40,245 bases of DNA, taken from positions 1-40,245 of the forward strand of contig CALEEY010000146.1 of assembly GCA_937877085.1 (NCBI GenBank), written 5' to 3'. This stretch comes from an uncultured Bacteroidota bacterium. Its GTDB lineage: Bacteria; Bacteroidota; Rhodothermia; Rhodothermales; UBA10348. Below are positions 4,708 to 37,846 of this stretch, piece after piece; the first letter of the stretch is position 1; every line of letters starts with the position of its first letter. The position numbers and the translations under genes were made by a program. A model generated the notes under the pieces. The model did not search any database and was not told where the DNA came from. It worked only from the letters and a program-made list of their open reading frames with translations.

Positions 4708-4740
4708 ACACCACTATTTTCTTATCCCACCACCGGAAAC

Positions 4741-4756
4741 ACTTGTTATGACAAGT
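4741..4756. promoter_or_regulatory. Operator-like palindrome A (ACTTGTTATGACAAGT)
   Basis: A perfect 6-4-6 palindrome, ACTTGT-TATG-ACAAGT, lying 31 bp before the YeeE start and after the recJ stop. The same pattern appears before sqr, before the soe operon and twice before the GntR/UTRA gene. The TTGTnnnnACAA core resembles operators of HutC-type GntR regulators. Assignment to the GntR gene at 31661 is inference. Confidence 0.68.
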
Positions 4757-4787
4757 AAGTACATGGTCAAAAATAAACAGGATATGT

Positions 4788-5793: not shown

Positions 5794-5808
5794 AAAGCTC
5801 AGAAACAC

Positions 5809-7275: not shown

Positions 7276-7323
7276 TTCCCTGTTTTCAGGTACCCGTGGG
7301 CGTTCAGCACCGAGCCATTCCTA

Positions 7324-9021
7324 ATGAAGCAATTCCCGATATCGCTATCCAGTTGGTTTCGGCCCTATCATAAAATCAATCTCGCGGGAGACCTGAATGC
7401 GGGCATAACGGTGGGTGTGATGCTTATCCCTCAAGGATTGGCATACGCCCTCATTGCCGGCCTTCCGCCCATTTATGGGCTTTATGCCGCATTGGTGCCC
7501 CTCATTGTTTACGCCTTATTAGGGACTTCTGGTCAGTTGGCCGTGGGTCCGGTTGCGATGGTCTCGCTGTTGATTGCCGCTGGGGTTAGTCAGATGGCTG
7601 AAAGCGGAACCGAAACCTACCTTGAGCTGGCCATTCTCTTGGCGTTTATGGTGGGGGTGATCCAGTTAGCACTTGGGTTACTGCGCTTCGGTACGGTTAC
7701 CAATTTCCTCTCGCATCCCGTACTCAGTGGGTTCACGAGCGCTGCCGCCATCATTATTGGTATGGCGCAGCTTAAACACTTGGTAGGCATTCCCATCCCC
7801 GGAGACGAAAATGTCTTCATAATAGCCCTCCATGCGGCCCAGAACATCACCACATTTCACCCCATTACGTTGGCGATAGGAATAGGTGGTATTCTGGTGA
7901 TTTTGTTGGCCAAACGAATTTCGCCCCGGTTGCCTGGTGGCATATTGGCCGTCGCATTGGCAACTGGACTGGTATTTTGGGCCGGTTTAGACAATCAAGG
8001 GGTCGCGATTGTTGGAGAAGTACCTGCTGGACTACCCAGTTTTTCGTTGACGTTTTTGACTCTTGAACATGTGCGGGGCCTTTTGCCTACGGCTCTGGCC
8101 ATTGCTTTAGTCGGATTTATGGAGTCCATCGCTGTTGCCAAGTCCATTGCGTCCAAGAACGGCTATTCAATCGAGCCTAATCGAGAACTCGTTGCGCTTG
8201 GGATGGCCAACGTAGCGGGCTCTTTTTTCAGTTCATTTCCAACGACCGGCGGATTTTCTAGGTCGGCGGTAAACAATCAGGCGGGATCCAAAACGGGCCT
8301 CTCCAGCCTCGTGAGCGCCACGGTCGTCGGTCTGACCTTGTTGTTCTTTACTCCTCTATTCACTTTCCTGCCAAAGGCTCTTTTGGCTAGTATCGTTATT
8401 GTGGCCGTCGTCGGATTGCTGGATTTTGCTGAAGTAAAATACCTTTGGCGCGTTAATCGAACCGATTTGGCGCTTTTAGCTCTGACATTTATCACCACGT
8501 TGTTGCTGGGCATCGAAGAAGGAATTTTGACTGGCCTGGTGCTGTCCTTACTGTCTTTTGTAAATCAGGCTTCCAAGCCTCACATGGCGGTTTTGGGCCG
8601 ACTTCCTAACCAGGAAGTTTTTCGCAATGTAGACCGTTTTACGGAGGCTGAACGCATACCCGGAGTGCTCATTTTCCGCGTTGATGCATCCCTCTTTTTT
8701 GGAAATGTCGATGTTGTCCGAGATGCCATCGAACTGGCCGTCGGTCTGAATGCCGAAACCCGGGTGCTGATTTTCGACTTGTATCCAGTAAATCGGATCG
8801 ATTCAACGGCTCTGCATTCGCTGTCCAAACTGCACGACTGGTTGGGTTCAAAAGACATCTCCTTGTACCTTTCGGGCGTAAAAGGCCCCGTCCGGGACGT
8901 GCTCTTTAAGGCCGGGCTAACAGAAAAGATTGGAGCGGATCATTTCTTTGATCACATTTACCCGGCTTCAGAATCGGCCAAACGTGTCCGCGATGCCTAT
9001 CTTGAACGCGAACCTTCATAA
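7324..9021 (+). CDS. SulP family inorganic anion transporter with STAS domain (first copy)
   Basis: A 565-residue SulP/SLC26-type transporter. The N-terminus has the family signature GVMLIPQGLAYALIAGLPPIYGLYAA, about 10-12 hydrophobic segments follow, then the conserved NVAGSFFSSFPTTGGFSRSAVN stretch, and a C-terminal STAS domain (FDLYPVNRIDSTALHSL). SulP proteins move sulfate, bicarbonate or related anions. In this operon, after a persulfide dioxygenase, export of sulfate or sulfite made by sulfur oxidation is a plausible role, but direction and anion are inference. It lies 48 bp after the dioxygenase stop and is followed by a paralogue 17 bp downstream. Confidence 0.92.
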   Translation: MKQFPISLSSWFRPYHKINLAGDLNAGITVGVMLIPQGLAYALIAGLPPIYGLYAALVPLIVYALLGTSGQLAVGPVAMVSLLIAAGVSQMAESGTETYLELAILLAFMVGVIQLALGLLRFGTVTNFLSHPVLSGFTSAAAIIIGMAQLKHLVGIPIPGDENVFIIALHAAQNITTFHPITLAIGIGGILVILLAKRISPRLPGGILAVALATGLVFWAGLDNQGVAIVGEVPAGLPSFSLTFLTLEHVRGLLPTALAIALVGFMESIAVAKSIASKNGYSIEPNRELVALGMANVAGSFFSSFPTTGGFSRSAVNNQAGSKTGLSSLVSATVVGLTLLFFTPLFTFLPKALLASIVIVAVVGLLDFAEVKYLWRVNRTDLALLALTFITTLLLGIEEGILTGLVLSLLSFVNQASKPHMAVLGRLPNQEVFRNVDRFTEAERIPGVLIFRVDASLFFGNVDVVRDAIELAVGLNAETRVLIFDLYPVNRIDSTALHSLSKLHDWLGSKDISLYLSGVKGPVRDVLFKAGLTEKIGADHFFDHIYPASESAKRVRDAYLEREPS

Positions 9022-9038
9022 TCGGTCCAAAAGGAACC

Positions 9039-10772
9039 ATGATTTTCGGAGACTCGGCAAGCGCATACTTTTTAACCTGGCGCCACGGATACAATCGGGC
9101 GCTTTTTAAAAGCGATTTAATTGCGGGGCTTACGGTTGGCGTCGTCCTTATTCCACAGGGCATGGCCTATGCCTTGCTGGCAGGCGTTCCTCCGGTGTAC
9201 GGACTGTACGCTTCCCTTGTCCCGTTAATTGTCTACACCTTCCTTGGTTCGTCCCGCCAGCTGGCCGTAGGAGTGGTTGCCATTGACTCGCTTGTCGTGG
9301 CAGCTGGGGTGGGTGCGTTAGCGGCCGCCAATTCGGAGTCCTTTCTAGGGCACGTGCTCCTTTTGGCGCTCATGGTGGGAGTTATCCAACTAGCCATGGG
9401 ACTGCTCCGATTTGGATTTGTGGTTAGCCTCCTGTCTAAACCCGTCATCACCGGATTTACGGCGGCTGCGGCAATCATTATTGGGATGAGTCAGCTCCAG
9501 CATTTGATGGGTCTTTCGCTTGGGCGCAATTTGAATGTTTTTATTCTGCTTTCTGAAGCGTTTTCTAAAATTGAAGACGTTCAAATGGCCAGCGTTATGA
9601 TAGGCCTTGGTGGAATTGTCTTGTTGATTGCCATGATGAAATGGCTTCCACGGGTTCCGGGACCCCTGATTGTGGTCCTGGTTTCTGCTTTTATGGTGTA
9701 TTTCACCCGCTTGGATTCAGAAGGGGTCGCCATTGTAGGCAGCATTCCGGCGGGTTTGCCAGCCCCGTCCTTCCCTCCCTTTTCGTATGAAAGTATCCGG
9801 GAATTATTTCCCACCGCCGTCACGCTTTCGTTGATCCAATTCATGGGTGTGATGTCGTTGGGTAAGGTTTTCGCTACGAAAAATGGATACCGAGTCCAGC
9901 CAAATCAGGAGCTAATTGCCTTGGGGACCATGAACTTAGCGGGTTCTGCGTTTTTATCCATTCCCGTATCCGGAAGCTATTCAAGAAGCGCGGTGAACGA
10001 TCGGGCAGGTGCCAAATCGCCTCTTGCAAACGGAATTGCAGCGCTTCTCATCTTGTGTACGTTGTTATTTCTAACCCCGTTTTTTTACTATCTGCCCATC
10101 CCCATCTTTGCATCCATCATTATGGTGGCGGCTTTTAGCTTGGTCAATATCGGCGAAGTGCGGTTTTTGCTGAAGACCAAAGCGGTGGACGGAGTTATAG
10201 CGCTGGTAACCTTTTTTGCTACGCTTATTCTGGGTATCGAACAGGGCATGTTGGTTGGTGTAAGTCTTTCCATCGTCGCTATTATGTACCGCATTGGAAG
10301 GCCTAATGTGGCCATTTTGGGCCATTTGCCGGGATCAAGGTCCTTTCGCGATGTCAACAACCATCGGCAGGCCCACCAGTTCGAGGGGATCGTGCTCATC
10401 CGCATAGATGCTTCTTTTTCGTTTGCCAATGCGGACCTGTTACAGGATGCCATCCAAGAGCATACGATCGACAAAAAAGCTAGAGCTGTCATTTTGGACG
10501 CTTCAAGCGTCAACGATCTAGATACCACGGCGTTGTCGGCGTTGGCCGACCTAAATCAGGTGCTCCGTGCTAAAAATATCTCGTTTTACTTTGCAAGTTT
10601 CCGTCAGAAGTCCCTCGACATGCTCGAGTCTTCTGGAACGATGGCAGAAATGGACCCTTCTCATTTCTTTTTGAGCGCGGATCAGGCCGTTCTACACGTG
10701 CTAACGCTGTGGGGTCGCGAGCGCGAATATCTTGATCGAATAGCCGGTCAGGCCGATTCAGACTCCGCTTGA
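9039..10772 (+). CDS. SulP family inorganic anion transporter with STAS domain (second copy)
   Basis: A 577-residue paralogue of the preceding gene with the same layout: GVVLIPQGMAYALLAGVPPVYGLYAS near the N-terminus, NLAGSAFLSIPVSGSYSRSAVN in the core, and a STAS domain with LDASSVNDLDTTALSAL. The copies have clearly diverged, so this is an old duplication and the two may differ in anion or affinity. AAAGGAA precedes the start. The 3' end overlaps the convergent torD-like gene by 25 nt. Confidence 0.92.
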   Translation: MIFGDSASAYFLTWRHGYNRALFKSDLIAGLTVGVVLIPQGMAYALLAGVPPVYGLYASLVPLIVYTFLGSSRQLAVGVVAIDSLVVAAGVGALAAANSESFLGHVLLLALMVGVIQLAMGLLRFGFVVSLLSKPVITGFTAAAAIIIGMSQLQHLMGLSLGRNLNVFILLSEAFSKIEDVQMASVMIGLGGIVLLIAMMKWLPRVPGPLIVVLVSAFMVYFTRLDSEGVAIVGSIPAGLPAPSFPPFSYESIRELFPTAVTLSLIQFMGVMSLGKVFATKNGYRVQPNQELIALGTMNLAGSAFLSIPVSGSYSRSAVNDRAGAKSPLANGIAALLILCTLLFLTPFFYYLPIPIFASIIMVAAFSLVNIGEVRFLLKTKAVDGVIALVTFFATLILGIEQGMLVGVSLSIVAIMYRIGRPNVAILGHLPGSRSFRDVNNHRQAHQFEGIVLIRIDASFSFANADLLQDAIQEHTIDKKARAVILDASSVNDLDTTALSALADLNQVLRAKNISFYFASFRQKSLDMLESSGTMAEMDPSHFFLSADQAVLHVLTLWGREREYLDRIAGQADSDSA

Positions 10773-11662
10773 CGCAGTTGCCGAATCACGTTTTGGGTTT
10801 TGCTTAGCTTTTGGGACCACTCGGCCGCCCAGTGCGCCGCGCCCTTCGTTGACCACTGATTCCACGTAGCCTGGTGGGCCGCAATTTCGTTATCAAAAAA
10901 ATCGCATATGCCGCCAAGCGCGTCGTACTGGGCGGCCGAGCGCAACATCCCTTCGATTGTACGAGCGCGTGAACCAAATCCCGTGGGTAGTCGATGGCTT
11001 CTGGCTTCATGGGCCAAAAGCGACTTCGGTATCATCAGACCGCTGGCTGCATGACTAGCCAAATATTCGGCGATCTCCGCAAGACTTGTTCGTTCTTCGT
11101 CCAGACTAAACGCCGATTCTAGGAGCTTCCACCGAGCGGCTGTATACGGTCTTGACCATGCTGCGTTGGACGAACCCAATTGAATCCTTTCAACCACGTC
11201 CTCCAAAGCCCCTGCTATTTGAGCCATTTGCGCGAACTCAAAGGTGCGAAGCCGATCTAAAAAGGGGGGAAGCCAGCTTAGTATCTCTTCCTCCAAGTAG
11301 GCCCTTGCATCATCTGGTCGGCCTTGGACTAGTAAAAACCGGATGAATCGGAGGGATGAAGAGAGGTGGTCGGCCAGAATGGAGGTCGTGTCTGGCTCAA
11401 ATCCAGCGGACGCCATAATGGTCCAGGCCCGATCGGAAACCGTTCCCCCCATGACCGCGCCCGGCTCGAGAAATACCGAGGCCGCTGGCATCAATTCGTG
11501 ACACAATACTTGGTAGTGCTGGGCCGCAAAATCGTCCGAAGGTTCGAAATGCGCCCGGCCGGCCGCCAACCCAAAGGATTTTAGCTCAACGGCACTTCGA
11601 GGGGCTCTTTCAATGAGATCTGCGAGCGTGGCCAGGTGGCCAATCATTTCATTTTCTGTCAC
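10748..11662 (-). CDS. TorD/DmsD-family molybdoenzyme chaperone, unusually long
   Basis: A 304-residue all-helical protein. The N-terminal half matches TorD-type redox-enzyme maturation proteins: an FEPSDDFAAQHYQVLCHELMP segment followed later by LVQGRPDDARAYLEEEILSWLPPFLDRL. These chaperones bind molybdopterin catalytic subunits during cofactor loading. It is the last gene after sqr (60-bp gap) on the minus strand and close to the only molybdoenzyme in the window, its likely client. TorD proteins are usually about 200 residues; the extra 100 C-terminal residues (ending in an H-W-rich helix) have no recognised match. The 3' end overlaps SulP2. Confidence 0.78.
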   Translation of the reverse strand: MTENEMIGHLATLADLIERAPRSAVELKSFGLAAGRAHFEPSDDFAAQHYQVLCHELMPAASVFLEPGAVMGGTVSDRAWTIMASAGFEPDTTSILADHLSSSLRFIRFLLVQGRPDDARAYLEEEILSWLPPFLDRLRTFEFAQMAQIAGALEDVVERIQLGSSNAAWSRPYTAARWKLLESAFSLDEERTSLAEIAEYLASHAASGLMIPKSLLAHEARSHRLPTGFGSRARTIEGMLRSAAQYDALGGICDFFDNEIAAHQATWNQWSTKGAAHWAAEWSQKLSKTQNVIRQLRQAESESA

Positions 11663-11722
11663 GGAATACCGATCTATTGATGGGAAAACCCTTGGCGTTT
11701 CCTGTTTTTGGCTGCACCTATC

Positions 11723-12925
11723 CTACATCCGTCCTCTTAGCATCCCGTGCCAATAGAAGAGTGGCAGAATCCGTGTTTTTAGAAAATACATTGACCAGCG
11801 CTCCTTTGTCGTATCAAAAGGAAAGGATGGGTCCGGTCGATTGTTGTAGTCAAACTCGGCCAACACCAATTTGCCATACCCCGTGACCAGAGGGCAAGAT
11901 GTGTATCCATTGTACCGTTTGGTCCCGGTAATCTTACCCTTTCTTTTTACGTCAAGCAAGTTCGCTACGACCAACGGTGCTTGCTTGCGCACAGCAGCTC
12001 CGGTTTTTGCATTCGGCGTGTTGGTTACATCGCCTAGGGAAAACACATTTTCAAAACGAGTGTGCTGGAGCGTTCCGGGGTCTACTTCTACCCAGCCGTC
12101 TGCATTTACTAAGGTGCTTTCTCTCACGAAATCGGGTGCAGATTGGGGTGGCACGACGTGAATCATGTCGTAAGGAACCTCCTTTTCATGCTGCGTTCCG
12201 TCTGGATTCGTTACACGAAAAACGGCCACATTATCCTCTCCTCTAATGGCAATGAGCTCCTTTTGGAAGTTGAACGTAATACCGTACCGATCCAACACTT
12301 TAATCAGGGTGTCTCTAAATTCCGGCACTCCAAACACTACCAATCCTGGAGACATAAAATTGATCTCCACTTGGTCCAAAAGGCCGTTTCGGCGGAGATA
12401 ATCCGCGGTCAAATACATGATTTTTTGAGGAGCTCCTCCACATTTGACCAACGTCGCGGGCTGGGTGAAAAGAGCTTGTCCCTTCTTCAAATTGCGAAGT
12501 ACTTCCCAAGTATAAGCGGCATGTTGGTAGCCGTAATTTGAGCAAACGCCTCCTTTGCCGAGGGCCTCGGGCAATCCTTCGATTTTATGCCAATTTAATT
12601 GGATACCCGCGGCAACTACTAGAAAATCATACGTGATTTCTGCACCGGACTTGTTGGTAACCCTATTCGTTTCCGGCGAAAAGCTGGCAACGAAATCCTT
12701 GATCCAAGTGACGCCCTTCGGGATATAATCAGCCGTTTTTCGGACAGAAACTTCCTTTTCAAAAACGCCGCCACCAACCAGCGTCCAAATCGGCTGATAG
12801 TAATGTTCTTCAGACGGTTCAATGATCGCGATGTCGAGGGTATGGTCTTTGCGCTTAAGCTGCGCCGCTACCGTGATGCCTGCTGTTCCGCCGCCGACGA
12901 TCACAACTGTATAATGACGTTTCAT
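11723..12925 (-). CDS. sqr: Sulfide:quinone oxidoreductase-like flavoprotein (type II SQR)
   Basis: A 400-residue FAD protein. VVIVGGGTAGITVAAQL at the N-terminus is the dinucleotide-binding motif. EEHYYQPIWTLVGGG and VCSNYG (Cys128), VKCGGAPQKIMYL (Cys162) and FSLGDVTNTPNAKTGAA are SQR features. A further cysteine is in TSCPLVTG (Cys344). The KCGGAPQKI stretch is typical of the mitochondrial-like type II group, which oxidises sulfide to persulfide and reduces quinone. The C-terminal FLKTRILPLFYWHGML is amphipathic and fits monotopic membrane attachment. It has operator B 74 bp upstream and is followed by torD. The product would feed the persulfide dioxygenase. Confidence 0.88.
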   Translation of the reverse strand: MKRHYTVVIVGGGTAGITVAAQLKRKDHTLDIAIIEPSEEHYYQPIWTLVGGGVFEKEVSVRKTADYIPKGVTWIKDFVASFSPETNRVTNKSGAEITYDFLVVAAGIQLNWHKIEGLPEALGKGGVCSNYGYQHAAYTWEVLRNLKKGQALFTQPATLVKCGGAPQKIMYLTADYLRRNGLLDQVEINFMSPGLVVFGVPEFRDTLIKVLDRYGITFNFQKELIAIRGEDNVAVFRVTNPDGTQHEKEVPYDMIHVVPPQSAPDFVRESTLVNADGWVEVDPGTLQHTRFENVFSLGDVTNTPNAKTGAAVRKQAPLVVANLLDVKRKGKITGTKRYNGYTSCPLVTGYGKLVLAEFDYNNRPDPSFPFDTTKERWSMYFLKTRILPLFYWHGMLRGRM

Positions 12926-12998
12926 ATTAAATCCAATCCGATGGAGCTCTTTTGCTTTTATATCCTATGATTTCGGATACAAAATACTTCCAGAATCA

Positions 12999-13014
12999 AC
13001 ATGTAATGACAAGT
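12999..13014. promoter_or_regulatory. Operator-like palindrome B (ACATGTAATGACAAGT)
   Basis: One mismatch from ACTTGTNATNACAAGT; on the minus strand it reads ACTTGTCATTACATGT. It lies in the 161-bp gap between the end of the soeA-like gene and sqr, 74 bp upstream of the sqr start. This position suggests that sqr-torD has its own regulated promoter rather than relying only on read-through from the soe operon. Confidence 0.6.
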
Positions 13015-13086
13015 CCATGTGAATTGTCAGACCATCGTGTCTTCTTTGCTATCGGACCCCTTTTTGATTGCCAATAAAAGCGGCTC

Positions 13087-16074
13087 CTATCGTCCAAACG
13101 GTTTGTCTGGTAGTTTGTAGGCCTCTTTCACCGGCTTTAGGGGCCGCTTCAACCATGCGGGACGCCTGGTGCCATCTGGGGAGTGGTCTACGGCGCTTCT
13201 AGACAGTTGTACCCATTCTTGGTAGTTCTCCATGGAGGCATTGGTATCTACGTAGACATCCCCGTGCTTGTCTTCTGGACGCGCTTTTTCGACCTTATAA
13301 GCCTTTTGAAGCCAACAATGGTGGCCAGATACAGGATCGGGCTGAACCGCATGCGTCAGGTTTTGATGGACTCCCACGTCTTCCCACCAAATGCGGGAGG
13401 TGTCCGGATCAAAAGATTTCCATGGTCCGGCGCCGTGATTTACCCGAAGCTTGTTACCCTCGTCGCGACTTTCTGTTATAGACACGAAATTCGATGTGCC
13501 CCGATTGAGTCCTTCTTCTTCTTTTAGCCGCCACCTACCCAAGTGGTGGCTCATGGCAATAACGCCGGGCTTAATGCCTTCCGTGATCCATATTTTATCG
13601 ACAAAATATCCTATCCTAGTGGTCACGCGGATCAATTCGCCCGTTTTTACCCCAATCCGGGAAGCATCGCTTGGGTGCATCCAGACCGGATTTTTGTGAC
13701 TCAATTCGTAGAGCCATTTGGCATTCGCGCTGCGCGTGTGAATGAGCGTTGGCAACCTGAAATTCGGAAGGAGTAACATCTCGCCCTTCGTTCGGTCGAT
13801 ATTGTCCGGATGGACATGACTTTTAAGGGTCCATGGCAAGGTGTATTCTTTTTCTGGCCAGCCCCAGTCCTTCATCGTGGGGCTAAAGAACTCCATTTTT
13901 CGGCTAGGCGTGGTGAATCCCGCTTTGGCTACGCCGTCGACCATGACGCCCACAACGGCGCCGTTTTTCAGCACTCTGCCCTGGCTGTCAGTCGTAATCC
14001 CCTGGGTGTCAAGCTTCTTTTCGTACGGAACGTAGTGGTCTTTTGTGACCTCAAACGCAGCATACCGCCTCATATACTCGAGAGGAGTCAAGCCCTCCTT
14101 GGCGGCCGTTTCAGGGAGTCCAGGTACGCTATTTTCGAATATCCAACGGTAGTATTCCTCCGTTGTAATGATTTCTCCTTCTCTGTAAGGGCTTTGAAAG
14201 TGCTTTCGGATACCAAGCGACCCATCGGGATCCATGGCGACGGACAATTCAATCCAGAATTCGTTTTCTTCCCACACCTCCCCGGGATTGGCCTGCCAGG
14301 TGTATTCAACTTTCTTGCCCAGCCGTTCCATGGCCACTCGGCGTACGGGCTGCCTAAAGGCAATCCATTGTCCTGCATGGGTTTCCTGACTCATTAGGTC
14401 ATGGCGCTCGTTCGCATGACCCATCGGAAGTACGTAATCAGCAAACCAGGCCGATTCGTTCCACGTCGGCGTTAACGCCACGTGACACTTCATTTTTTCC
14501 TCGTCTTGAAGCGCACGCATCCACATAAATCCATCGGGATTGATCCAGAGCGGGTTATAGACACGGGTGAAATAAACGTCGATGTCTCCACGGCCCTCTT
14601 CCAAGAAATGAGGCAATAGAAAACTCATTTCGTAATGAGCAAGCGGCCATTCATGGGGCATTTGGAGTTCATTCCAAGCGTTAAACGGGGGCGGCTCTTC
14701 AAATGGTTTGGGAACGAACTTATTCCAACTATTTCCCGAAGTACCTCCTTCTGTTCCGATACTGCCCGTTAGAACGTTCAGAAACAGCAGGCATCTGGCC
14801 ACTTGCCATCCGCCGAGGTTTCCCACGGAGGCACTTCGCCACGTGTGCGTGGCCAAACGGCCTTGGCAATTGGCCACGTATTTGGCAGCTTCGCGAATGC
14901 GTTCAATGTCAACTTGGGATTCCGCAGCCGCACGCTCGAACGTAAATTCAGCGTAGAGATCTTTTAACAGACGATCAAAAACCGCATAATCTGCTTGGTC
15001 GGCTGAGAGGTCAAATTTATCGGACGCGAGTAGGTCTTTTAGTCGATCCCAAATACCCTCGCCGGGGAGATCAATCTGAATCCCGTCATAGTTTTGAGCT
15101 TTAATGAGCTCCAACGCCTCGCGCCAGTTCACCCATTTCCGAACGAATTCCCGGTCGTAGAGGTCATTTTGAATCATGTGATTGGCAATAGCCAATAGAA
15201 CGGTCTGCTCCGATCCGGGCCACGTTGGCAGCCAGGTGTCGGACTTAGAGGCCGTGTTTGAAAGCCGCGGATCGAAGGTTATGAGCTTCGCCCCGTTCTG
15301 TTTGGCTTCCATGATCCGCTGGGCGTGCGGATTGAAGTAGTGACCCGTTTCGAGATGGCTAGAAATCAGCAGAATTACGTTCGCCTTGGCGTGGTCTGGG
15401 CTAGGACGGTCAAAGCCAGCCCACAAATAATACCCGGCCCTGGCCCCCGCAGAGCAAATGTTCGTGTGTGAATTGTGTCCGTCTACTCCCCAAGCTTCAA
15501 TACAACGGTTGGTAAAACCGTCTTCGCCGGGGCGCCCCACGTGGTACATAATGCCGTCGAGCCGTTTCCGACGCGATGCGCTCATTTTTTCGGCAATTTC
15601 AGAGACGGCTTCGTCCCATGAAATCCGTTTCCACTTCCCTTCTCCGCGTTTTCCGACCCGTTTCAATGGATAGAGAATGCGTTCTGGATCATAGACCTGA
15701 TTAATGGTGGCTGGTCCTTTCGCGCAATTCCGGCCCCGGCTTCCCGGGTGTTTGGGGTTTCCCTCGAATTTCTTGATCTCAAGCGTTTCGCGGTCTACGT
15801 AGGCCAGCAGACCACACGCGCTCTCGCAATTAAAGCAAACGGTTGGTACTAAGGTGTAATGGCGAGCGACCTTCTTGGGCCACGCCTTTCCATCCCACTC
15901 CACCCAATCGTCCCACATTTCGGTCGGAGGATACTGACTCATGCGACCATCCGGGTGGGTCACCGAGGTCATTTCAATTTTTTGGGGCTTCCTATCCGGG
16001 GTAGAAAATTGGGGTAAACCAAACGGCGTTCCGTCTCCAGTGGCTTCGGGATATGCTGATTTTTTCTTTGACAT
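13087..16074 (-). CDS. soeA: Molybdopterin oxidoreductase catalytic subunit, probably sulfite dehydrogenase (SoeA-like)
   Basis: A 995-residue DMSO-reductase-superfamily protein. The N-terminal 4Fe-4S ligands are Cys80, Cys83, Cys87 (CFNCESAC) and Cys117 (GRNCAKGP). NSHTNICSAGA places Cys207 as the likely Mo ligand, as in the PsrA/PhsA/SoeA branch. A molydopterin-dinucleotide-binding domain with MHPSDASRIGVKTGELIRV closes the protein. There is no twin-arginine signal (start MSKKKSAYPEA), so the enzyme should be cytoplasmic, which favours SoeA over periplasmic polysulfide or thiosulfate reductases. It follows the fused electron-transfer subunit by 34 bp. With SQR and persulfide dioxygenase next door, oxidation of sulfite to sulfate is the best guess; another sulfur substrate cannot be excluded. 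Confidence 0.8.
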   Translation of the reverse strand: MSKKKSAYPEATGDGTPFGLPQFSTPDRKPQKIEMTSVTHPDGRMSQYPPTEMWDDWVEWDGKAWPKKVARHYTLVPTVCFNCESACGLLAYVDRETLEIKKFEGNPKHPGSRGRNCAKGPATINQVYDPERILYPLKRVGKRGEGKWKRISWDEAVSEIAEKMSASRRKRLDGIMYHVGRPGEDGFTNRCIEAWGVDGHNSHTNICSAGARAGYYLWAGFDRPSPDHAKANVILLISSHLETGHYFNPHAQRIMEAKQNGAKLITFDPRLSNTASKSDTWLPTWPGSEQTVLLAIANHMIQNDLYDREFVRKWVNWREALELIKAQNYDGIQIDLPGEGIWDRLKDLLASDKFDLSADQADYAVFDRLLKDLYAEFTFERAAAESQVDIERIREAAKYVANCQGRLATHTWRSASVGNLGGWQVARCLLFLNVLTGSIGTEGGTSGNSWNKFVPKPFEEPPPFNAWNELQMPHEWPLAHYEMSFLLPHFLEEGRGDIDVYFTRVYNPLWINPDGFMWMRALQDEEKMKCHVALTPTWNESAWFADYVLPMGHANERHDLMSQETHAGQWIAFRQPVRRVAMERLGKKVEYTWQANPGEVWEENEFWIELSVAMDPDGSLGIRKHFQSPYREGEIITTEEYYRWIFENSVPGLPETAAKEGLTPLEYMRRYAAFEVTKDHYVPYEKKLDTQGITTDSQGRVLKNGAVVGVMVDGVAKAGFTTPSRKMEFFSPTMKDWGWPEKEYTLPWTLKSHVHPDNIDRTKGEMLLLPNFRLPTLIHTRSANAKWLYELSHKNPVWMHPSDASRIGVKTGELIRVTTRIGYFVDKIWITEGIKPGVIAMSHHLGRWRLKEEEGLNRGTSNFVSITESRDEGNKLRVNHGAGPWKSFDPDTSRIWWEDVGVHQNLTHAVQPDPVSGHHCWLQKAYKVEKARPEDKHGDVYVDTNASMENYQEWVQLSRSAVDHSPDGTRRPAWLKRPLKPVKEAYKLPDKPFGR

Positions 16075-16108
16075 TACGTTGTCGGAGCGTTTATGCGGTT
16101 TAGTCCGT

Positions 16109-17758
16109 TTAGCTATTGGGTATTTCTTGCGGGGCGTTTACAAACGCTCGTTCGTACAAATAGAGGCCGAAGAGAGCCATGGCGCCAGCCACGATTCCTG
16201 GAACTCCGGTAAACATCAACCCAAAGGGTAGGATGTGACCCACCAAGGTGCTTCCAATCCAAAAAGAACGCGCATAGCGCCCTTTTACAATCATATGGGC
16301 AGCTTTGGCAGCGGACTCCGAAGCATGAGACATACCAAACTCGCCCATGAACGTAACGGCAAGGTCAACCCCCAATGCACCAATGAAAGAAGCCCGAACA
16401 ACCGAAGAAATGTCCGTGCCGAGATCCAAGAAAGTGCCTACGATTAGTAACATGGCGCTACCTGCCAACACAGCCTGAACAATGAGGTGAATCGGGAGAA
16501 GCGGGCTTTGCCAAAGATCACGCCCCTCGGCCTGTCCAAATAGGAAGGCTGTATAGACCGCCGTCCCAATAGCCAGAGGCAATCCAATCCACATGATTGG
16601 GGTTCGAAAAGGAGCCACGCTCGCTTCAGGCAACCATTCCATCCAGACGGACAATTCGCCAAGCCACCACAGGGCAACCAACCCACTAAAACCAATCAGA
16701 ATAAAGGCGCCCCTGACCAGCCAGCTCCGCCACTGAGGGCGGGTAATGATTCGTAAAAACCGCTCCGGGCGTTCCAAATCAAAAACAAGCAAGGCCGTAG
16801 TGGCCGTCAAAAATAGAAGCGACAAAAACGACGAGGCCATAAATACGTGATTGTGGACGCCAATCAGCCCAAACAAGAAGGCTGAGCCCAGAATCATGAA
16901 CAGGCCAGACGCTATTCCCTTGGTCACCAAGTAGGCCGGAACCGGCCAGTGCCACGGTACCTTGTGCTGAGCGTTCCAAACCACTTGGGTCATCTGCTCG
17001 GCCATTCTTCCCTCGCCGATCTGAATAATGCCCCCTTTGGGATCTCCTTGGGCTTCAGGCCGCCTGAGTGCTTGGCCAGAAGCAGATTTTTTTCCGTAGG
17101 CCGTCAGTTCGGCTGGAATAGCGCCACGATGTCCATCCCCTTCATGCAGTGAAAGCACATCGGCCCATGCAAATGAGTCGGGGGTTCGTTCGACGGCCGT
17201 CGGATGCATGGCAACGTCGTCCCCACCGATATAGTACAACTTCGGGGCTGTACCTTGTTCGGGCTTTCTGACCGTAACCTTATTGCGCGCAACGGCTTGC
17301 GCGATTTCCGTCGTTGGGTCGTCCAGGTCTCCGGCCAGAATCGCGTGTTCGGGACAAACCACTACGCACGCCGGTTCTAAGCCTAAATCGACCTTATGGG
17401 CGCAATAATGGCACTTTGCTGCCGTCCCTGAATCGGGATCAATGTAAATGGCGTCGTACGGACAGGCTTGCATACATGCTTTACACCCGATGCAGGCGTC
17501 CGGGTCAAATTCGACGATGCCGTCGTCCCGCTGGTACATAGCCGTGACCGGGCAAATCCGGACGCACGGGGGATTGGAGCAGTGGTTACACCGAGTGACT
17601 TGAAAGTTTCGGGTCACATTGGGGTATTGACCCGTCTCCACGCTCTTTACCCACGTCCGTTGGACGCCCAGCGGCACTTCATTTTCACTTTTGCATGCCG
17701 TTGAACAAGCATGGCACCCGATGCAGGTGTCATTATTAATTACAAAGCCGTAATTCAT
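16109..17758 (-). CDS. Fused 4Fe-4S ferredoxin and NrfD-type membrane subunit (SoeB-SoeC fusion)
   Basis: A 549-residue fusion. Residues 1 to about 185 carry four cysteine clusters of a DmsB/PsrB-type ferredoxin: CIGCHACSTACK, CNHCSNPPCVRICP, CIGCKACMQACP and CHYC...CVVVCP. A linker of about 80 residues follows. From about residue 265 there are roughly eight hydrophobic helices of an NrfD/PsrC-type quinone-binding membrane protein (WHWPVPAYLVTKGIASGLF near its start). The subunit should pass electrons between the catalytic subunit and the quinone pool. In most known Soe and Psr systems these are two separate genes. It is the first gene of its operon, 46 bp downstream of operator C. Confidence 0.87.
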   Translation of the reverse strand: MNYGFVINNDTCIGCHACSTACKSENEVPLGVQRTWVKSVETGQYPNVTRNFQVTRCNHCSNPPCVRICPVTAMYQRDDGIVEFDPDACIGCKACMQACPYDAIYIDPDSGTAAKCHYCAHKVDLGLEPACVVVCPEHAILAGDLDDPTTEIAQAVARNKVTVRKPEQGTAPKLYYIGGDDVAMHPTAVERTPDSFAWADVLSLHEGDGHRGAIPAELTAYGKKSASGQALRRPEAQGDPKGGIIQIGEGRMAEQMTQVVWNAQHKVPWHWPVPAYLVTKGIASGLFMILGSAFLFGLIGVHNHVFMASSFLSLLFLTATTALLVFDLERPERFLRIITRPQWRSWLVRGAFILIGFSGLVALWWLGELSVWMEWLPEASVAPFRTPIMWIGLPLAIGTAVYTAFLFGQAEGRDLWQSPLLPIHLIVQAVLAGSAMLLIVGTFLDLGTDISSVVRASFIGALGVDLAVTFMGEFGMSHASESAAKAAHMIVKGRYARSFWIGSTLVGHILPFGLMFTGVPGIVAGAMALFGLYLYERAFVNAPQEIPNS

Positions 17759-25749: not shown

Positions 25750-26908
25750 GTGCTCGACAAAACTATCGCTTTCCTTTCAGCACCCGTGTTTGTAAAAGCA
25801 CCGAGGAGCTATTATTCGGCCATTTTGGCCTGCCTACTGCTATTGTGCGCCATTCCGGCGACTACTAGTTGGGCTCAGGAAGTGCGTGTTATTCATGCAG
25901 TTGACCTCCAGCGGGATGGGCGCTACACCGCTAACGTCATGATTACCAACATGACGAGTACGGCCATTCGGAACTGGACGATGTCCTTTCGGCTCGATTC
26001 TCACGTTGAATCCATCGAGAACGCGGGCTGGAGTGAATTTCAAGGCGCTTTTACCGTCAATGGCCGGGGATGGACCAAGGAAATAGCTCCTGGAGACGTG
26101 GTTTGGTTCACCATCAGTGGCCTTTCGTATAACAATATTGTCGAAGTCCCCAGAAATTGCTTTTTCAACGGATCTGCCTGCGTGGTTCAGGGGGCCCCTC
26201 AGCCGGTCATTACCTCAGCCCGTCCGGATCAGATGATTGTCTCTGCATGGATCGACAAGTCCGATGCCACGACCTACTCGGGCTACATCGCTATTCTGAA
26301 TCCTACGGATCTAAAGTTTCCTGCACTTTAAGATTTAAAATTCTCCACCCCGTCCCTTTTGGTGGAAATGCAACAGGTTATTTGGTCGCGTTCCGGATCG
26401 GATTATCAAGTATATGGACATGCCCACACCGATTATATCGATGCTGGAAACTATGTGCTGATCCCAATCCGAGGCGTGCATACGGGCACGCCGGCTCTTC
26501 CCACCAATTGTAGACTTAATGGTGTCGCCTGTACGTTTAAAACGCCGGATAAACTCATTGAGACCCCTTGGCTCAATGTGGGCATCAAAATGGCTGAGTA
26601 TACCAAAACGATCTGGGAAGGCTATATCCGCATTGAAAACCCCACGAGCTACGAATTTCCGTCGTGGACGCTACGATTTGATTTATCCGAAACCATAACC
26701 GAAATGGACGGAATGATTTGGTCTCGATCGGGCAATACCTACACCGTTCGCCCTGATTTTGGCTGAGGTCGCATCCTCGAAAAGTCGGAATATACCTTCC
26801 GTATTGCTGGGACCTGGGCAGACAGCTTGTCGGGGCCTTCAAACTGCACGATAAATGAAAAAGATTGCCTTTTATCCGCAGAAATACATCAAAATCTTGA
26901 GGAAGTAG
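25750..26908 (+). pseudogene. Secreted protein with three tandem CBM2-like modules, disrupted
   Basis: The intact first ORF (GTG 25750 to TAA near 26331) has a signal peptide ending ATTSWAQ and one CBM2-like module with W and NCFFNGSAC features. A second module is cut at FPAL-stop. Comparison with module 3 (FPSWTLRFDL) shows that FPA-W-TLRF was expected, so a small deletion after GCA and a compensating extra A a few bases on explain the stop. The frame then reopens (26359) for the rest of module 2 (NCRLNGVAC) and module 3, which meets TGA at 26764-26766 yet continues in frame to NCTINEKDC. The modules are probably carbohydrate-binding. After that the frame runs into the kinase region. Confidence 0.62.
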
Positions 26909-28365
26909 GAACGGGAGGTGGACCGTCAAAAAAGGCTGTTGGCAAAAACCAACGAAGCGCTCGAGGTGAGCAGTGAACAGGCCTCTGTTTTTGCCGCCCA
27001 GGCATCGGAGGCCACGCACGAAAAAAGTCGCTTTCTGGCTAATATGAGCCATGAAATTCGCACGCCGATGAATGCCATTATCGGCTTTACGGATCTTCTG
27101 TCGAGACGTACGGAAGATGCCGAAACAAAAAAATATGTCCAACACATTCAGGCCTCTAGCCGATCCCTCCTTACGCTCATAAACGACATTCTAGATCTCT
27201 CCAAAGTCGAAGCAGGAAAACTGGATATTGTCCCCGAGGCAATGAGTCTTGTCGGTTTGGTTGATGAAATGCCGTTGATGTTTGCCCAGAAAGCGGAGTC
27301 CAAGGGAATTTATTTTGATTGTGTGGCTCATTCTTCCATACCTCCAGCTCTCGTGTTGGACGAAACCCGGATCCGACAGATTTTGATAAATCTGATCGGT
27401 AATGCCATCAAATTTACATCGGAGGGCGGCGTACGGGTAGAGGCCAGAGCCGAACCGTTTGCAACCGATGGCCCCAATCAAACAACCGTTCTATTCCGGA
27501 TCGAAGACACCGGTATCGACATCCCGGAAGAGCAAAATACTACTGTTTTTGGCGCGTTTGACCAGGTTAAGGGTCAGTCTCAACAAGCGTACGGAGGAAC
27601 GGGCTTGGGTCTTGCTATTGCCAGTAAGTTGGTGGAATTGATGGGAGGGCGGATCTACCTGGACAGCACTCCCGGGAAAGGATCGGTATTTATGGTGCGG
27701 ATACCCAGTGTCGATGTCTTGAAAAGCAAGGCGGTTTCCGTTAAGAAGGATGCGGCAACAGGAGGACAGATTCGCTTCCGGGGTGCAACAGTTCTGGTAG
27801 CCGACGACATCACGCTAAACCGAGAGTTGGTTCGCGAAATGCTTGCGGCATCTGGCTTGACGGTCTTAGAGGCTGCTAACGGCCACCAGGTGCTGGACAT
27901 TGCCGGGTCTAAACCGATTGATTTATTGCTGCTCGATTTACATATGCCCCTTTTAAATGGCTTGGGCGTCCCGGACGAACTCGGCCGCTCCAAAAAAGGA
28001 CGCACTTTTCCTGTCTTGGGATTTTCGGCTTCCGTTATGGGTGAAGAGGCCGACTCTTTTATCAAACGAACCGACGCCTTTGTGGCCAAGCCCGTTACTC
28101 AAGATATTCTATTGGAAGCGATTGCGGCCTTTTTGCCGTTCGACCGACTGGAACCGCCTGCGTCCTCACCCATTTCGACATCGGAGGAGGCTCCCGGGCC
28201 CTCGGTTCCTACGGACCCCGCATTGGGGGCACTTTTGGAGGACGCCCGCATGCGCTGGCAGGACCTGACGTATCGTCAAACGGTCAATGAATTTGTCAGT
28301 ATCCTTGGCCTGTATTCCATAGGGCAGGAAATATTTGTGGGTTATCAATGCGCATTTGCGCTCGC

Positions 28366-29133
28366 TCAGCTATTGGCTAGCCGGCGTATCGCTATAAACA
28401 CGAGTATAAAAGCTGTGTAACTAATGAAGAAAGGGATTATGTAGTTTGCCCAACCTAGACATAGCATCACACCCATAATCAGAACCTGAAACCCCAGCCC
28501 AAACGAAGACACAGCGGTCATCAGTAATTGCGGCATATGCTCGCCAACCGGGGCTTTCTTGTCTAACCCAAAAATAATCTTATCGAACCCGCCGTTCAAA
28601 AGATAATAGGCGCCGAACAAAGTATCAACATGACGCTGCTGCTCTCCAGGCATGGCAATAGGCGACGTATGCTCGAACACACGACTGGTTTTATCGCCGT
28701 TAACCTTGTTTCGGAGAATGACATAGTAATAATTATACAGCGTGCCTTGTAGCTGCAGGCCTAAAAAAGCCATCAACATGAATAGTATCGACCCTTCTGC
28801 TACATACCATATACTAAGTAGGAAGAAGAAGTTGAGGATAATGTCGGCGACCGAATCCAAATAACGACCGGTATAAGACGGCGTTTTTTTAACTCTGGCT
28901 AACTCACCATCAGCGGCATCTAAAATCGATTTTACGATGAGGAAAAAAAACGCCGCCCAATATTGATGGTTGATGATGCACACTATTGCAATAATACCCG
29001 CAACAGTAAACAGCAAAGTGACGTGTATTGGCGTCATATTGGTGTCTTTAAGCGCATTAGCGATCTGGCGGGCAATCGGTCTGCCGTAATCAGACAGATC
29101 CAAAAATCGATGCTCGGTGGGTAGTTTAGACAT
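28366..29133 (-). CDS. CDP-alcohol phosphatidyltransferase family membrane protein
   Basis: A 255-residue membrane enzyme with the complete family motif DAADGELARVKK...GRYLDSVAD, i.e. D-x2-DG-x2-AR-x8-G-x3-D-x3-D. About six hydrophobic segments follow or flank it. The family transfers a phosphatidyl or similar group from a CDP-activated donor to an alcohol (inositol, glycerol, serine and others); the acceptor is not evident. The gene is complete although it sits inside the inserted segment. Its base composition is somewhat more AT-rich than neighbouring genes, in line with a foreign origin. Confidence 0.87.
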   Translation of the reverse strand: MSKLPTEHRFLDLSDYGRPIARQIANALKDTNMTPIHVTLLFTVAGIIAIVCIINHQYWAAFFFLIVKSILDAADGELARVKKTPSYTGRYLDSVADIILNFFFLLSIWYVAEGSILFMLMAFLGLQLQGTLYNYYYVILRNKVNGDKTSRVFEHTSPIAMPGEQQRHVDTLFGAYYLLNGGFDKIIFGLDKKAPVGEHMPQLLMTAVSSFGLGFQVLIMGVMLCLGWANYIIPFFISYTAFILVFIAIRRLANS

Positions 29134-29701
29134 TTTGGTTTATATATATCCTGCGGACAATGCGTATGTTTTAGCTATATGAAGGATAGACAGGCTCTGA
29201 GGGCAGAGTTTACTCAGTCTCGTCCGCGGCGATTACCGACCGTGCAAGGCCCGATGCGGCTTTTTTAATGCTCTTTTATGTCTGGGGTTGCATCAGTAAA
29301 AGCAGCGCGCAGTATGACCGTTACAGGAAAAAATACAATCGAATACGAGCCAGCACATAAGACATAAATCCTTTTCACAGATCCGGAACTCGCTACCATG
29401 ACTCCGATATGGCTTTATTTGCCCAAGTAATCCAACATTACCTGACAGCTCACAGAGCCGATATACCGTCTAAAACCGCTTTTTCGACGTGGGCTGCTGC
29501 CTCCGCATTGATACAAGGATCGTCGAGTTTACCATTCGGTCCATGCTGCAGCGATTTAATCACAAAAATGTTTCATGGCATCTTGTAATCCGCCAGCAGA
29601 ATAAGCGTACCGTCTTGACGAACCGTACCGCAGTCTCCTATCTCGCCGGTACCGATCTGGCAGATCGCTTTGCTAATATTCTATGCCCTCTATATTTTCA
29701 T
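29134..29701. other. Noncoding stretch within the inserted segment
   Basis: No convincing gene on either strand. A short minus-strand reading ending at 29573 (...GTGEIGDCGTVRQDG) has a protein-like look but no start and no match I recognise. Near 29246-29266 an AAGGCC/GGCTTT hairpin followed by T residues could be a plus-strand terminator, though no plus-strand gene precedes it. The ORF at 29489-29722 is not supported. The stretch is probably intergenic DNA of the donor organism. Confidence 0.45.
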
Positions 29702-30121
29702 TTATCCAAGTTGGAAATGTAGGCGCTCGTCGTCCGGCGCAGTGACCTTAACCTTCTTCCCGGTCGGGTCTTGTGCCAACATCGCGAAGGCTGTTGCGTT
29801 ATCGTCTTTGGCAGTACGAGAAACAAAGCGTTCACCACTAATTGTCTCTCCAATAATCACTGCATGCGCACCACCGTCTCGTTCGTGGTGCACTGTATAG
29901 GAGATGATTGACCCGCTTTGTGGGTCGGCGCACACCTTACAGGCCGGCAATTCATTACTACTAATGACCGTTTCAGTGTTGCCCCAATCAATACTGCTGG
30001 GCCTGCGTGAATAAATTCCGCTGGCATGCTTGGACAACATGCCACCGTTCGCCGTCACCATGGCGAAACTATCGGGTCTTTTCCGTGCCTGCCAAACAGC
30101 TTCCGCAAGAGCATGCATATG
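29702..30121 (-). pseudogene. C-terminal fragment of a thiolase-like acetyl-CoA acetyltransferase
   Basis: The minus-strand frame reads MHALAEAVWQARKRPDSF, then AMVTANGGMLSKHASGIYS, which matches the end of the thiolase fold in thiolase-like proteins of the acetyl-CoA acetyltransferase type, including the TANGG and KHA elements. The accessory C-terminal OB-like domain follows and ends at 29702. Upstream of about 30121 the match stops and the DNA belongs to the kinase, so the N-terminal two thirds are missing. The ORF-track start at 30208 is in kinase sequence. No function is expected. Confidence 0.72.
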
Positions 30122-30308
30122 GAGTCTTTTGGCGACCAAATGTCGGCATACGGAGAGCAATATGGCTTTGCGCCGCTTGTTCACTGGGGAAAAACGGTTT
30201 CCGGACACTCAAAACATTTTGAGTTGGAAGAGCTCATGATGGCCTTTAATCAGTTTCCTAAATTTATAGATCATCCGAACCCATAAGCGCCTTGCTTAGG
30301 GTTTACTT

Positions 30309-31444
30309 TTGAATGCACCTATGAACGAGCCTCGCGGACACATTTTAGTGGTTGACGACACCCCGAAGAACATTCAGGTGCTCGGAAGCATGCTTCGAGA
30401 GGCCGGGTACGCGATCAATGTTGCGACGAATGGAGAACAGGCTCTTGAAACGCTTGATCGGATTGAGCCCGATTTAATTCTCCTGGATGTGATCATCCCC
30501 GTCATGGACGGATTTGAGACCTGCCGTCGCATTAAGGCCAATGAGTGACTTGCCCAAATTCCCGTCGTTTTTCTGACGGCAAAAGTCGAAATGGATGATA
30601 TTGTGACTGGTTTTGAGCTTGGAGCCGTCGACTACATAACCAAGCCCTTTCATTCGGCTGAACTTTTGCGCCGGGTAGAAACCCACATCTCCCTAGGAGT
30701 CCTTCGTAGAGAACTGGCGGAGAAAGTCACGCAGCTGACGGGGGCAATGGCCAAATTGAGATGCTTCACCGGGAACAGGACGCGTTTTTACGGCACGAAT
30801 TGAATAATGTGATCGGGCCTATTGCTGGGTATGCCGAAATGCTGCGTTCTCAATTGGGGGAGCAGCTCGATGAAAGACAGAAAAAATGGCTCGCGGCCAT
30901 CATGCAAGGCACCGTAAGCATGAAGCAGATGCTGGATCAAATTAAAAAACTTCAGGAATTTGAGCGCGGAAGTCAATCCCTTCATTTAATGCCGGTCCCA
31001 ATCGTGGGTATTTTGTCCGACGTGATCGGCGATGTGGCCACCTACTTTAAAGGGGCCATTCCCATTTTCTTTGACCCGGAGGCCTGCCTAGACGCCAAAA
31101 TTCAGGCCGATTTAGCCTTTTTGCCCGGGGTTTTCAAAAATCTTCTAAAAAACGCTGTCGAACACGTCCAGGCCCTAGATGAGCCTAGCCGCAGAGTCGA
31201 CGTGTACTGCAGCGTGGAGCCCACGGCCGTTCTCATTTCGGTCCAGAATGGAGGAGCGGTCATCCCCCCGGAACGGTTGGCCACCTTTTTTGACAAGTTT
31301 AATACCACCAAGGGCAATGATGGCGGCACGGGTTTGGGAACCACGTATGCCCGAATTGTAACCGAGGCGCATGGGGGGACCGTATCTGTGTGGTCTAGTG
31401 AAGACCAGGGAACGCTTGTTTCTGTTCGATTGCCGCTGGTGTAG
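30309..31444 (+). pseudogene. Response regulator-histidine kinase fusion, disrupted by TGA and a frameshift
   Basis: The first ORF is a receiver domain (ILVVDDTPKNIQVLGSML, phospho-acceptor in LILLDVIIPVMDG) that meets TGA at 30546-30548. The same frame continues IPVVFLTAK and DYITKPF, the rest of a receiver. A coiled linker follows to about 30757, where the frame changes: adding one G restores KLEMLHREQDAFLRHELNN, the phospho-acceptor helix of a kinase. The HATPase part (NLLKNAVEHV, GGTGLGTTYARIVTEAHGGTVSVW) ends at 31444. The repaired length is a multiple of three. The gene starts 22 bp after the hybrid kinase tail (or 34 bp if ATG 30321 is used), probably in one operon. Confidence 0.75.
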
Positions 31445-35647: not shown

Positions 35648-37846
35648 TTATTTCCAGTTCCATTGTTTTGAAATATGTCCATCCAAACGAATCACTACCG
35701 CGCCCTCCGTTGATGTTTGCAAAACCGAGATTTGATGATTTTCTAAACGCTGTAAAACATCGATGTGGGGATGCCCAAAGGAGTTTTTACTTCCTGCTGA
35801 AATGACGCCAATGGTTGGTTTAACCGCTGTTAATAATTGGTTGGTAGAGCTCGACCTCGATCCGTGGTGGCCAATTTTGATAACTTGAGCGTTCAAAAGT
35901 TGGCTAAATAGATTGACTATTTCCATTTCTACTTCCTGTTCAGCATCACCCATCAAGAGCACTTTCGATTCACCATAGACCAGTAAAAGAACAATTGAAT
36001 CGTTGTTTTCAGCGCCAGGCAACCATGGGTTTAAAACGAAAAGTCTGATTTCTTTTCCCATCTTGATGGTGCCCCCGCTAAAAACAGATTGAATATGGGG
36101 ATCTAGGTGTTTTAGCCAGCCAGCTTGAAAAATGGATTGGGGCAACTCATCCGTTCGTAAGAGTTGGGTTTGACGAGCTTGATCGATGAAGGCGGGTAGA
36201 CCCCCAACGTGGTCCGAATGGCCATGAGTTAGTAAAAGGGAATATGATGGTGTTAGTGCGCGGGCCTGAAGGTGTTTGAAAACGGATTTTCCGCTCCACG
36301 AATTGGGCCCTAGATCAACCACAAAGGCGTTCCCGCTGGGGCTCTCTATGACTGCGGCGTCCCCTTGTCCTACATCTAAAAAGGTTATGGTGACCTCCTT
36401 TTTGGACTGAAAAGCGCCCTGCAAAGAAAAAAAAGCCATCAGCCCCAATAGCAACAGATGAACAACAGCATGCTTTTTGTAAACCCACATCAAAAAAACA
36501 AGGGAAGGCAGCCATATTTCGGCAGGAAATGTATAAAGAGGGCCAACCCAACTTGGAATCCAGCTGATGTTCGCCCCCATAGAACTGAATTTTATCAACA
36601 GGTTGAGCATTAATTCAGAAACGGTGGAAAAACTGGAAAACCCAAACGGAAGCATGATCGAAACAAGGACGACGGGCACCAAAAAAGAAAGTAAAAGAAC
36701 AGCGATAGGACTAAAGAGAAGCGCCCCCAAGGGTACAAATCCGAAGTAATAAGCCAAAAAAGGGGCCGTTCCTAGGGAGGCAGCGCAGGTTATTTTCATT
36801 GCCGAAACAATGGCCGAGCGAATAGGGTGTTTGGTTTTATGGCGCTGTTCGAGGCTAACCATCCATAAAATAAAGGTTACTGCCCCAAAGGAGAGTTGGA
36901 AGCCAGGAGCTAAAATGTCGTTCGGACGAACCAGCAGTATGAAGTAACCGGCTACGCCGGCTGGCCACAGTGGATGGCCCGACCCCCACCGACGGTGCGT
37001 GAAGCTGGAAATCAAGAAAACGGAAAGCATGATTGCCGATCTAACTACCGAAGCAGACAGCCCAACGAGTCCTACAAAAAGCCAAACACATAAGAAGCTG
37101 GTGCCAGCAAGGAGCTTACGCCGGATACGAGCAGACACCGGCACTCGAAGCACCAACACACGAAGGATAAAATGGACGAACCCAGCAATAATGCCTACGT
37201 GTAGGCCGGAAATGGCCAGTATGTGGCCTAAACCCGTCCGTTGAAAGTCGGTTTGGATAGGCCCACTAATTCCAGACCGATCACCCAGCAAGAGGGCGGC
37301 TATCAGGTATTTGTTTTCTTCTGAAAGGAAGCGGGTCTCCAGACGATTTAAAAACTCCTGTCGAATTTGAAACAGGACATGGGCCAGGCGGCGCGCATGC
37401 GCCTGGTGATTGATCGTGATGAGTTCCACCTCATCGATGGACCCGAGCCAGTTTTTGGAGCGATAATAGGCCTCTTCATCAAAATCATAGGGGTTTCGCC
37501 GCGCCCTTGGCGCGGCGAAACGACCCTTTAAAATGACTTGATCGCCCGGATGAATGGCTATTCTCGTCCCGGGAGAGCTGGTTGCCCCCCCAGGGTCGTT
37601 TTCTGTCCCCGGATAATCGAAGCGCAAGAGTACCCCATGTGGCCCACGAAGAACGGCCGATTTGTTGTAATCGACGCTTGTTATGGCCCCAGCAACCCAA
37701 ACGGAGCCCTTGTTCATTTCAATCCGAACCGCCTGGCGGCGAGATTCAACGGAATAAGACGTCGATACAGACGCTACACAAACGAAAACAAGAACCAACA
37801 CGTGCCAGAAATCCTGGTTGGGTGCCACCTGCTGCATGCCCGCCAT
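35648..37846 (-). CDS. comEC: ComEC/Rec2 family DNA uptake channel
   Basis: A 732-residue membrane protein. The N-terminal part holds a soluble OB-like (DUF4131) region with GDQVILKGRF and NPYDFDEEAYYRSKNW. The competence domain (about 190-450) includes LLGDRSGISGPIQTDFQRTG and GHILAISGLHVG, and about ten hydrophobic segments. The C-terminal metallo-beta-lactamase domain has LDVGQGDAAVI, THGHSDHVGGLP, LLMGDAE and KIGHHGSRSSS. It forms the inner-membrane channel for single-stranded DNA during natural transformation. The N-terminus seems to lack the extra helices some homologues have, so the true start is uncertain. A single gene cannot show that the cell is competent. Confidence 0.92.
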   Translation of the reverse strand: MAGMQQVAPNQDFWHVLVLVFVCVASVSTSYSVESRRQAVRIEMNKGSVWVAGAITSVDYNKSAVLRGPHGVLLRFDYPGTENDPGGATSSPGTRIAIHPGDQVILKGRFAAPRARRNPYDFDEEAYYRSKNWLGSIDEVELITINHQAHARRLAHVLFQIRQEFLNRLETRFLSEENKYLIAALLLGDRSGISGPIQTDFQRTGLGHILAISGLHVGIIAGFVHFILRVLVLRVPVSARIRRKLLAGTSFLCVWLFVGLVGLSASVVRSAIMLSVFLISSFTHRRWGSGHPLWPAGVAGYFILLVRPNDILAPGFQLSFGAVTFILWMVSLEQRHKTKHPIRSAIVSAMKITCAASLGTAPFLAYYFGFVPLGALLFSPIAVLLLSFLVPVVLVSIMLPFGFSSFSTVSELMLNLLIKFSSMGANISWIPSWVGPLYTFPAEIWLPSLVFLMWVYKKHAVVHLLLLGLMAFFSLQGAFQSKKEVTITFLDVGQGDAAVIESPSGNAFVVDLGPNSWSGKSVFKHLQARALTPSYSLLLTHGHSDHVGGLPAFIDQARQTQLLRTDELPQSIFQAGWLKHLDPHIQSVFSGGTIKMGKEIRLFVLNPWLPGAENNDSIVLLLVYGESKVLLMGDAEQEVEMEIVNLFSQLLNAQVIKIGHHGSRSSSTNQLLTAVKPTIGVISAGSKNSFGHPHIDVLQRLENHQISVLQTSTEGAVVIRLDGHISKQWNWK

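Follow-up and report, generated by a model that had tools for sequence, protein, structure and literature searches.

A DNA segment of apparent Halieaceae origin with base-exact edges in a degenerate kinase gene of an uncultured Rhodothermales bacterium

Results

We analyzed a stretch of 40,245 nucleotides (hereafter, the window) from the draft genome of an uncultured Rhodothermales bacterium (G000). In the window, a hybrid histidine kinase frame on the forward strand, flanked by the gene of a secreted CBM2-domain protein and that of a receiver-histidine kinase, is interrupted by a segment whose genes lie on the opposite strand (Table 1). The locus was compared mainly with those of G002, a genome of the same genus, and G014, a genome of another genus in the same family.

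Table 1. Features of the interrupted locus, with window positions and supporting evidence
Feature	Position	Strand	Evidence
CBM2-domain secreted-protein pseudogene, C-terminal part lost	25750..26922	+	Pfam CBM_2; three-way alignment with G002 and G003
Deletion scar, linker of the CBM2 gene joined to kinase codon ~921 at a short repeat (..AACGGGAGGTSGA..)	26907..26922	+	Comparison with G002
Hybrid histidine kinase remnant, left of the insert	26918..28291	+	Pfam HisKA, HATPase_c, receiver; tblastn to the G002 kinase
Foreign insert, continuous piece of apparent Halieaceae chromosome	28292..30118	-	Matches to L043 and L044; same right edge in G158, G146 and G029
CDP-alcohol phosphatidyltransferase, complete, 255 aa	28366..29133	-	Pfam CDP-OH_P_transf, E=4.4e-14
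Acyl-CoA ligase tail (relic)	29482..29599	-	Similarity to L044 (66-183) and to the 3' end of the 540-aa L046 ORF
Thiolase-like gene, last 138 codons only	29702..30118	-	Pfam TLP1_add_C, E=1.7e-7; codon alignment with L043, L045 and L046
Kinase 3' end, last 55 codons and stop, frame kept	30119..30286	+	Alignment with G002 and G014
Receiver-histidine kinase pseudogene, downstream	30309..31444	+	Pfam; comparison of frames with the intact gene in G002
comEC-like gene, apparently intact	35648..37846	-	Pfam Competence, E=3.5e-46; Lactamase_B; DUF4131

Alignment with the kinase orthologues of G002 and G014 placed the extra DNA at 28,292-30,118, a length of 1,827 bp or a whole number of codons (609). 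In G002, window positions 28,253-28,291 correspond to 5791-5829 and positions 30,119-30,240 to 5830-5951, which are contiguous there, and the kinase of G014 is likewise contiguous across the site (6441, then 6442). Relative to these orthologues, not one kinase base or residue was lost or duplicated: the host join reads ...RQTVNE/MESFGDQMSAYG..., compared with ...RQTVNEMESFGEEMAAYG... in the uninterrupted G002 gene, and the kinase reading picks up after the insert as MESFGDQMSAYGEQY. A previous reading of the window from its sequence alone (the sequence-only reading) had placed an insertion at 28315-30120. The insertion itself stands, whereas its edges had to be corrected on the basis of the contiguity in G002 and G014; in particular, the kinase had been read through VNEFVS, but FVS is insert sequence and the left edge so drawn lies 24 bp within the insert. 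The insert was not found in any genus relative examined, and the arrangement is not a normal gene order of relatives, the orthologous kinases of G002 and G014 being continuous.

The same reading regarded the segment as foreign, and a search for a continuous match in another taxon indeed returned a donor lineage in Halieaceae. The insert is 95.1% identical to, and collinear with, a Haliea MAG contig (CAJXTK010000167.1; L043) over 1,718 contiguous bp (window 30119-28403), a match that is bounded by the end of the L043 contig. A Halioglobus contig (L044), at 86% identity, extends the match to window 28,291. At the right edge, the close matches that reach it (G027, G029, G146, and G158, from the family of the Haliea genome containing L043) all end at window 30,118-30,119. 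On either side, donor homology therefore gives way to host homology at one and the same base, with a host/donor overlap of at most 1 bp (A) per junction, the donor being represented here by its relatives and not by the donor itself. On the donor side, the left edge is looser than the right because the sole relative reaching it is only 86% identical. The ends had been read as cut through genes, and both do cut through donor sequence: the segment is collinear with the L043 chromosome (partly also with L044 and L046), in which the positions of its ends are the borders of nothing. Judged from these alignments, the insert is one unbroken chromosomal segment of foreign, Halieaceae origin. As a side observation on this public MAG, L043 appears to retain untrimmed Nextera adapter at 1-60 and 6133-6178 (CTGTCTCTTATACACATCT.. 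at one end and an ORF tail, CLLYTSPSPRD, at the other).

Counted from its right end along the - strand, the insert carries the end of a thiolase-like gene, a ligase relic, a phosphatidyltransferase gene, and 74 bp of downstream DNA. A truncated thiolase gene and a complete CDP-alcohol phosphatidyltransferase had already been recognized on this strand, and domain searches bore out both (Table 1). The thiolase-like gene, which encodes 509 aa when whole in L043 (ORF 3303-4832), has its 5' part cut off at the insert edge. A possible further truncated gene had also been suggested, and there is indeed the tail of an acyl-CoA ligase, a name read from the translation with no family search behind it; its truncation, however, predates the transfer, as the entire 540-aa gene is found in L046 but the identical relic is found in L043, and thus belongs to the donor lineage. 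The phosphatidyltransferase retains an intact catalytic motif (DGELARVKKTPSYTGRYLDSVAD) and shares 94% amino acid identity with its L043 counterpart; a scan of GTDB species genomes recovered relatives in four Haliea/Halioglobus MAGs (94%, 91%, 84%, and 83%). More distant relatives, at 57-66% identity, occur in MAGs of Flavobacteriales and Saprospiraceae (L049-L057), from which it appears that this gene family may move between phyla by itself.

Of the changes assigned to the insert branch, 10 were synonymous and 7 non-synonymous, compared with 12 and 9, respectively, on the Haliea L043 branch; overall, no relaxed selection was seen on the insert branch relative to the L043 branch. By gene, the insert branch comprised 6 non-synonymous and 5 synonymous changes in the phosphatidyltransferase, including Y180N at an invariant residue, and 1 and 5, respectively, in the thiolase. 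Such an absence of post-transfer decay would be expected of a chimera as well as of a very recent event.

The kinase into which the segment is placed is itself reduced and its locus degenerate, which the sequence-only reading had not noted. Its frame in the window starts at approximately residue 921 of the 1,437-aa open frame of G002, which has a large sensor part, and the N-terminal loss of approximately 920 residues occurred via a deletion at a 10-14-bp similar stretch. At the resulting scar, the kinase follows directly on the glycine-rich linker of the CBM2 gene upstream, the intervening sequence of G002 type having gone together with the N-terminal part; in G002, both genes are whole and approximately 12.9 kb lie between the points joined at the scar. 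The sensor half was not found elsewhere in G000, in which only weak paralogues were detected, and its relocation within the genome was rejected on the same ground. The earlier statement that the insert splits a hybrid kinase gene is thus correct in that the insert lies inside the kinase frame, but overstates the effect, since the gene was without its sensor half. In addition, the sequence DTGID stands in place of DSGIG or DTGIG at the ATP-binding G1 motif of histidine kinases (DxGxG). Relative counts of non-synonymous and synonymous changes in the kinase remnant differed only slightly between the window (87:72) and G002 (84:81), suggesting that the loss of the kinase is recent; the case for this loss rests on the truncation and the changed G1 box.

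The neighboring genes are also decayed. The CBM2 pseudogene contains an in-frame TAA (26,329) and TGA (26,764), compared with an open frame in G002 that runs to a T9SS-type tail, and a Por_Secre_tail domain (T9SS-type sorting tail) is present on a neighboring gene, which suggests a host on the Bacteroidota/Rhodothermota side. The frame of the downstream receiver-kinase is interrupted by an in-frame TGA at 30,546 and shifts near 30,755. In G003, a separate assembly, the CBM2 gene is fused directly to the downstream kinase and the hybrid kinase is wholly lost; this fusion of the CBM2 gene to the HisKA part (L039, G003:C35, 6350-6420) arose independently by deletion at a similar stretch of 6-8 bp, which suggests that, within the genus, short-homology deletions readily affect this locus. 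A contig of G004 ends inside the hybrid kinase (G004:C348, 12425-12925). As far as these comparisons can tell, the host locus is degenerate independently of the insert, with truncation and insertion possible in either order, and was deleted separately in G003.

Elsewhere in the window, another hybrid-type histidine kinase frame (774-2885, - strand) has an in-frame TGA at 888 (..KLIVRQ*GRIEVDTKP..). TGA terminates several intact genes of the window, and this frame therefore looks like a pseudogene and not a case of recoding. Translations of 5809-17758 suggest a likely sulfur-oxidation neighborhood, with an MBL-rhodanese protein, two tandem SulP-type permeases, an FAD/NAD oxidoreductase, and a molybdopterin/iron-sulfur oxidoreductase.

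Discussion

We regard a genuine insertion, irrespective of its mechanism, as quite likely. Somewhat less firmly, we favor as its probable cause a recent, Ku-independent illegitimate capture of a short linear Halieaceae fragment in a degenerate, non-essential locus. A short linear piece of Halieaceae chromosome would have entered the host cell, presumably by DNA uptake, and would have been joined into a break in the non-essential, degenerating two-component locus by homology-independent (illegitimate) recombination. The joining would have taken place in the cell and not in the assembler, Ku-independent end joining may have been its chemistry, and the insert would have been tolerated because its target had little function left to lose. 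ComEC, DprA, and a T2SSE/PilB-PilT-type ATPase are encoded, and uptake of free DNA by the host is thus possible, although the presence of these genes does not prove competence. The comEC gene in the window had been taken as a hint of capture; it is present, but as one gene of a widespread set it says little.

Some observations count against capture. Ku was not found in any of the six genomes of the genus (G000, which is 89.96% complete, and five relatives), and the usual bacterial end-joining route therefore appears to be missing; Ku-dependent end joining was rejected on this basis. Ku is present in 4 of the 27 genomes of the family. Known homology-independent joins often cost host bases, whereas none was lost here. 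As for end joining in general, it has been stated that, a few species apart, prokaryotes almost entirely lack the non-homologous pathway (PMC2884548).

The sequence-only reading left capture and a chimeric assembly as alternatives. Capture fits better, given the exact join, the overlap of at most 1 bp, and the decaying locus, but a chimera keeps a real, if minority, chance. In that case, a Haliea contig from the same sample would have been misplaced between two host contigs whose ends abut, or both joins would stem from chimeric molecules. The source, of which the window is contig 146, is a draft of 332 contigs (2.9 Mb, 89.96% complete), the insert has changed in the manner of a live Haliea gene and shows no decay, and its ends cut donor sequence without bearing any mobile-element signature, all of which would suit an artefact. 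However, this would take two joins, neither with a k-mer in common between host and donor, that jointly preserve every host base, and with at most 1 bp shared per junction, a k-mer-based assembler has nothing to join on. A random artefact would also rarely choose a pseudogene locus, as near-neutral targets presumably make up a small minority of such a genome. Furthermore, with L043 and L046 as the only probes, no further DNA of either was found in G000, and the contamination of the genome is 0.62%. Misjoins do occur in short-read assemblies, but those found to be chimeric in one test on a mock community were at contig ends and between highly similar, near-identical genomes (PMC8172020). Finally, the two flanks of the insert adjoin each other in a single contig of G003 (L039) and share a contig in G002, which indicates that they belong together.

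If the insertion is genuine, routes other than end joining have to be considered. Homology-facilitated illegitimate recombination, in which RecA anchors the host-like side of an incoming molecule and the other side is joined illegitimately, commonly replaces or deletes host DNA. Here, no host DNA was lost, and on either side donor homology stops precisely where the insert does, leaving no anchor. This route is known in transformable bacteria (reviewed in PMC2884548), but for lack of both anchor and loss it is disfavored, and we consider it quite improbable. Marginally less probable again is a mobile unit that carried the phosphatidyltransferase as cargo, such as a non-autonomous element, an integron-type cassette, or an IS91/ISCR one-ended transfer. 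The intact phosphatidyltransferase gene and the clean insertion would agree with such a unit, but the insert begins within a thiolase gene and is collinear with the L043 chromosome, no target-site duplication was found, and the insert ends are unrelated by eye. No transposase or related enzyme was found among its contents (only the thiolase end, the ligase relic, and the phosphatidyltransferase), in line with the previous reading; nor did the insert match any of 72,556 plasmid or 50,697 phage records, and no relatives of the phosphatidyltransferase were found in viral contigs. Without a target duplication, a recombinase, or a phage or plasmid match, a mobile element was rejected. A normal inherited gene order, lost by the relatives, has next to no chance: no genus relative has the insert, and it is refuted by the continuous kinase orthologues of G002 and G014, which represent two genera of one family.

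Events of the kind that we favor are known, and this one is a clean example. Ku/LigD non-homologous end joining can capture filler DNA, blunt or nearly blunt, into a break. The present case resembles it in the (nearly) blunt capture of an unrelated fragment but differs in that Ku was not found here or in the genus. The variable segments ascribed to illegitimate recombination in an earlier survey (Genome Biol 2010, PMC2884548) are similarly non-mobile, present or absent, free of transposase or site-specific signatures, and often located within genes; that survey compared strains of one species, whereas the source of the present segment lies in a bacterial family unrelated to the host, with both of its junctions resolved. 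Homology-facilitated illegitimate recombination in Acinetobacter, Pseudomonas stutzeri, and pneumococcus (cited within PMC2884548) likewise brings in foreign DNA with little or no homology at the join point, but the present insert has neither a homologous anchor nor a loss of host bases. A broader view, in which a lineage without detected Ku efficiently seals double-stranded foreign fragments, once taken up, into breaks without host loss, so that DNA of marine neighbors accumulates in its pseudogenes, seems unlikely.

By the time foreign DNA is seen, its edges have usually been blurred by selection and amelioration. If the insert is a chimera, a two-sided, base-exact foreign insert can arise within a draft contig and pass a contamination check. 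If it is real, it would represent a fresh capture in a locus of little function, for which the donor lineage, the recipient, the empty-site orthologues, and both junctions are available at base resolution, and the chemistry of joining would become testable in an uncultured lineage without detectable Ku.
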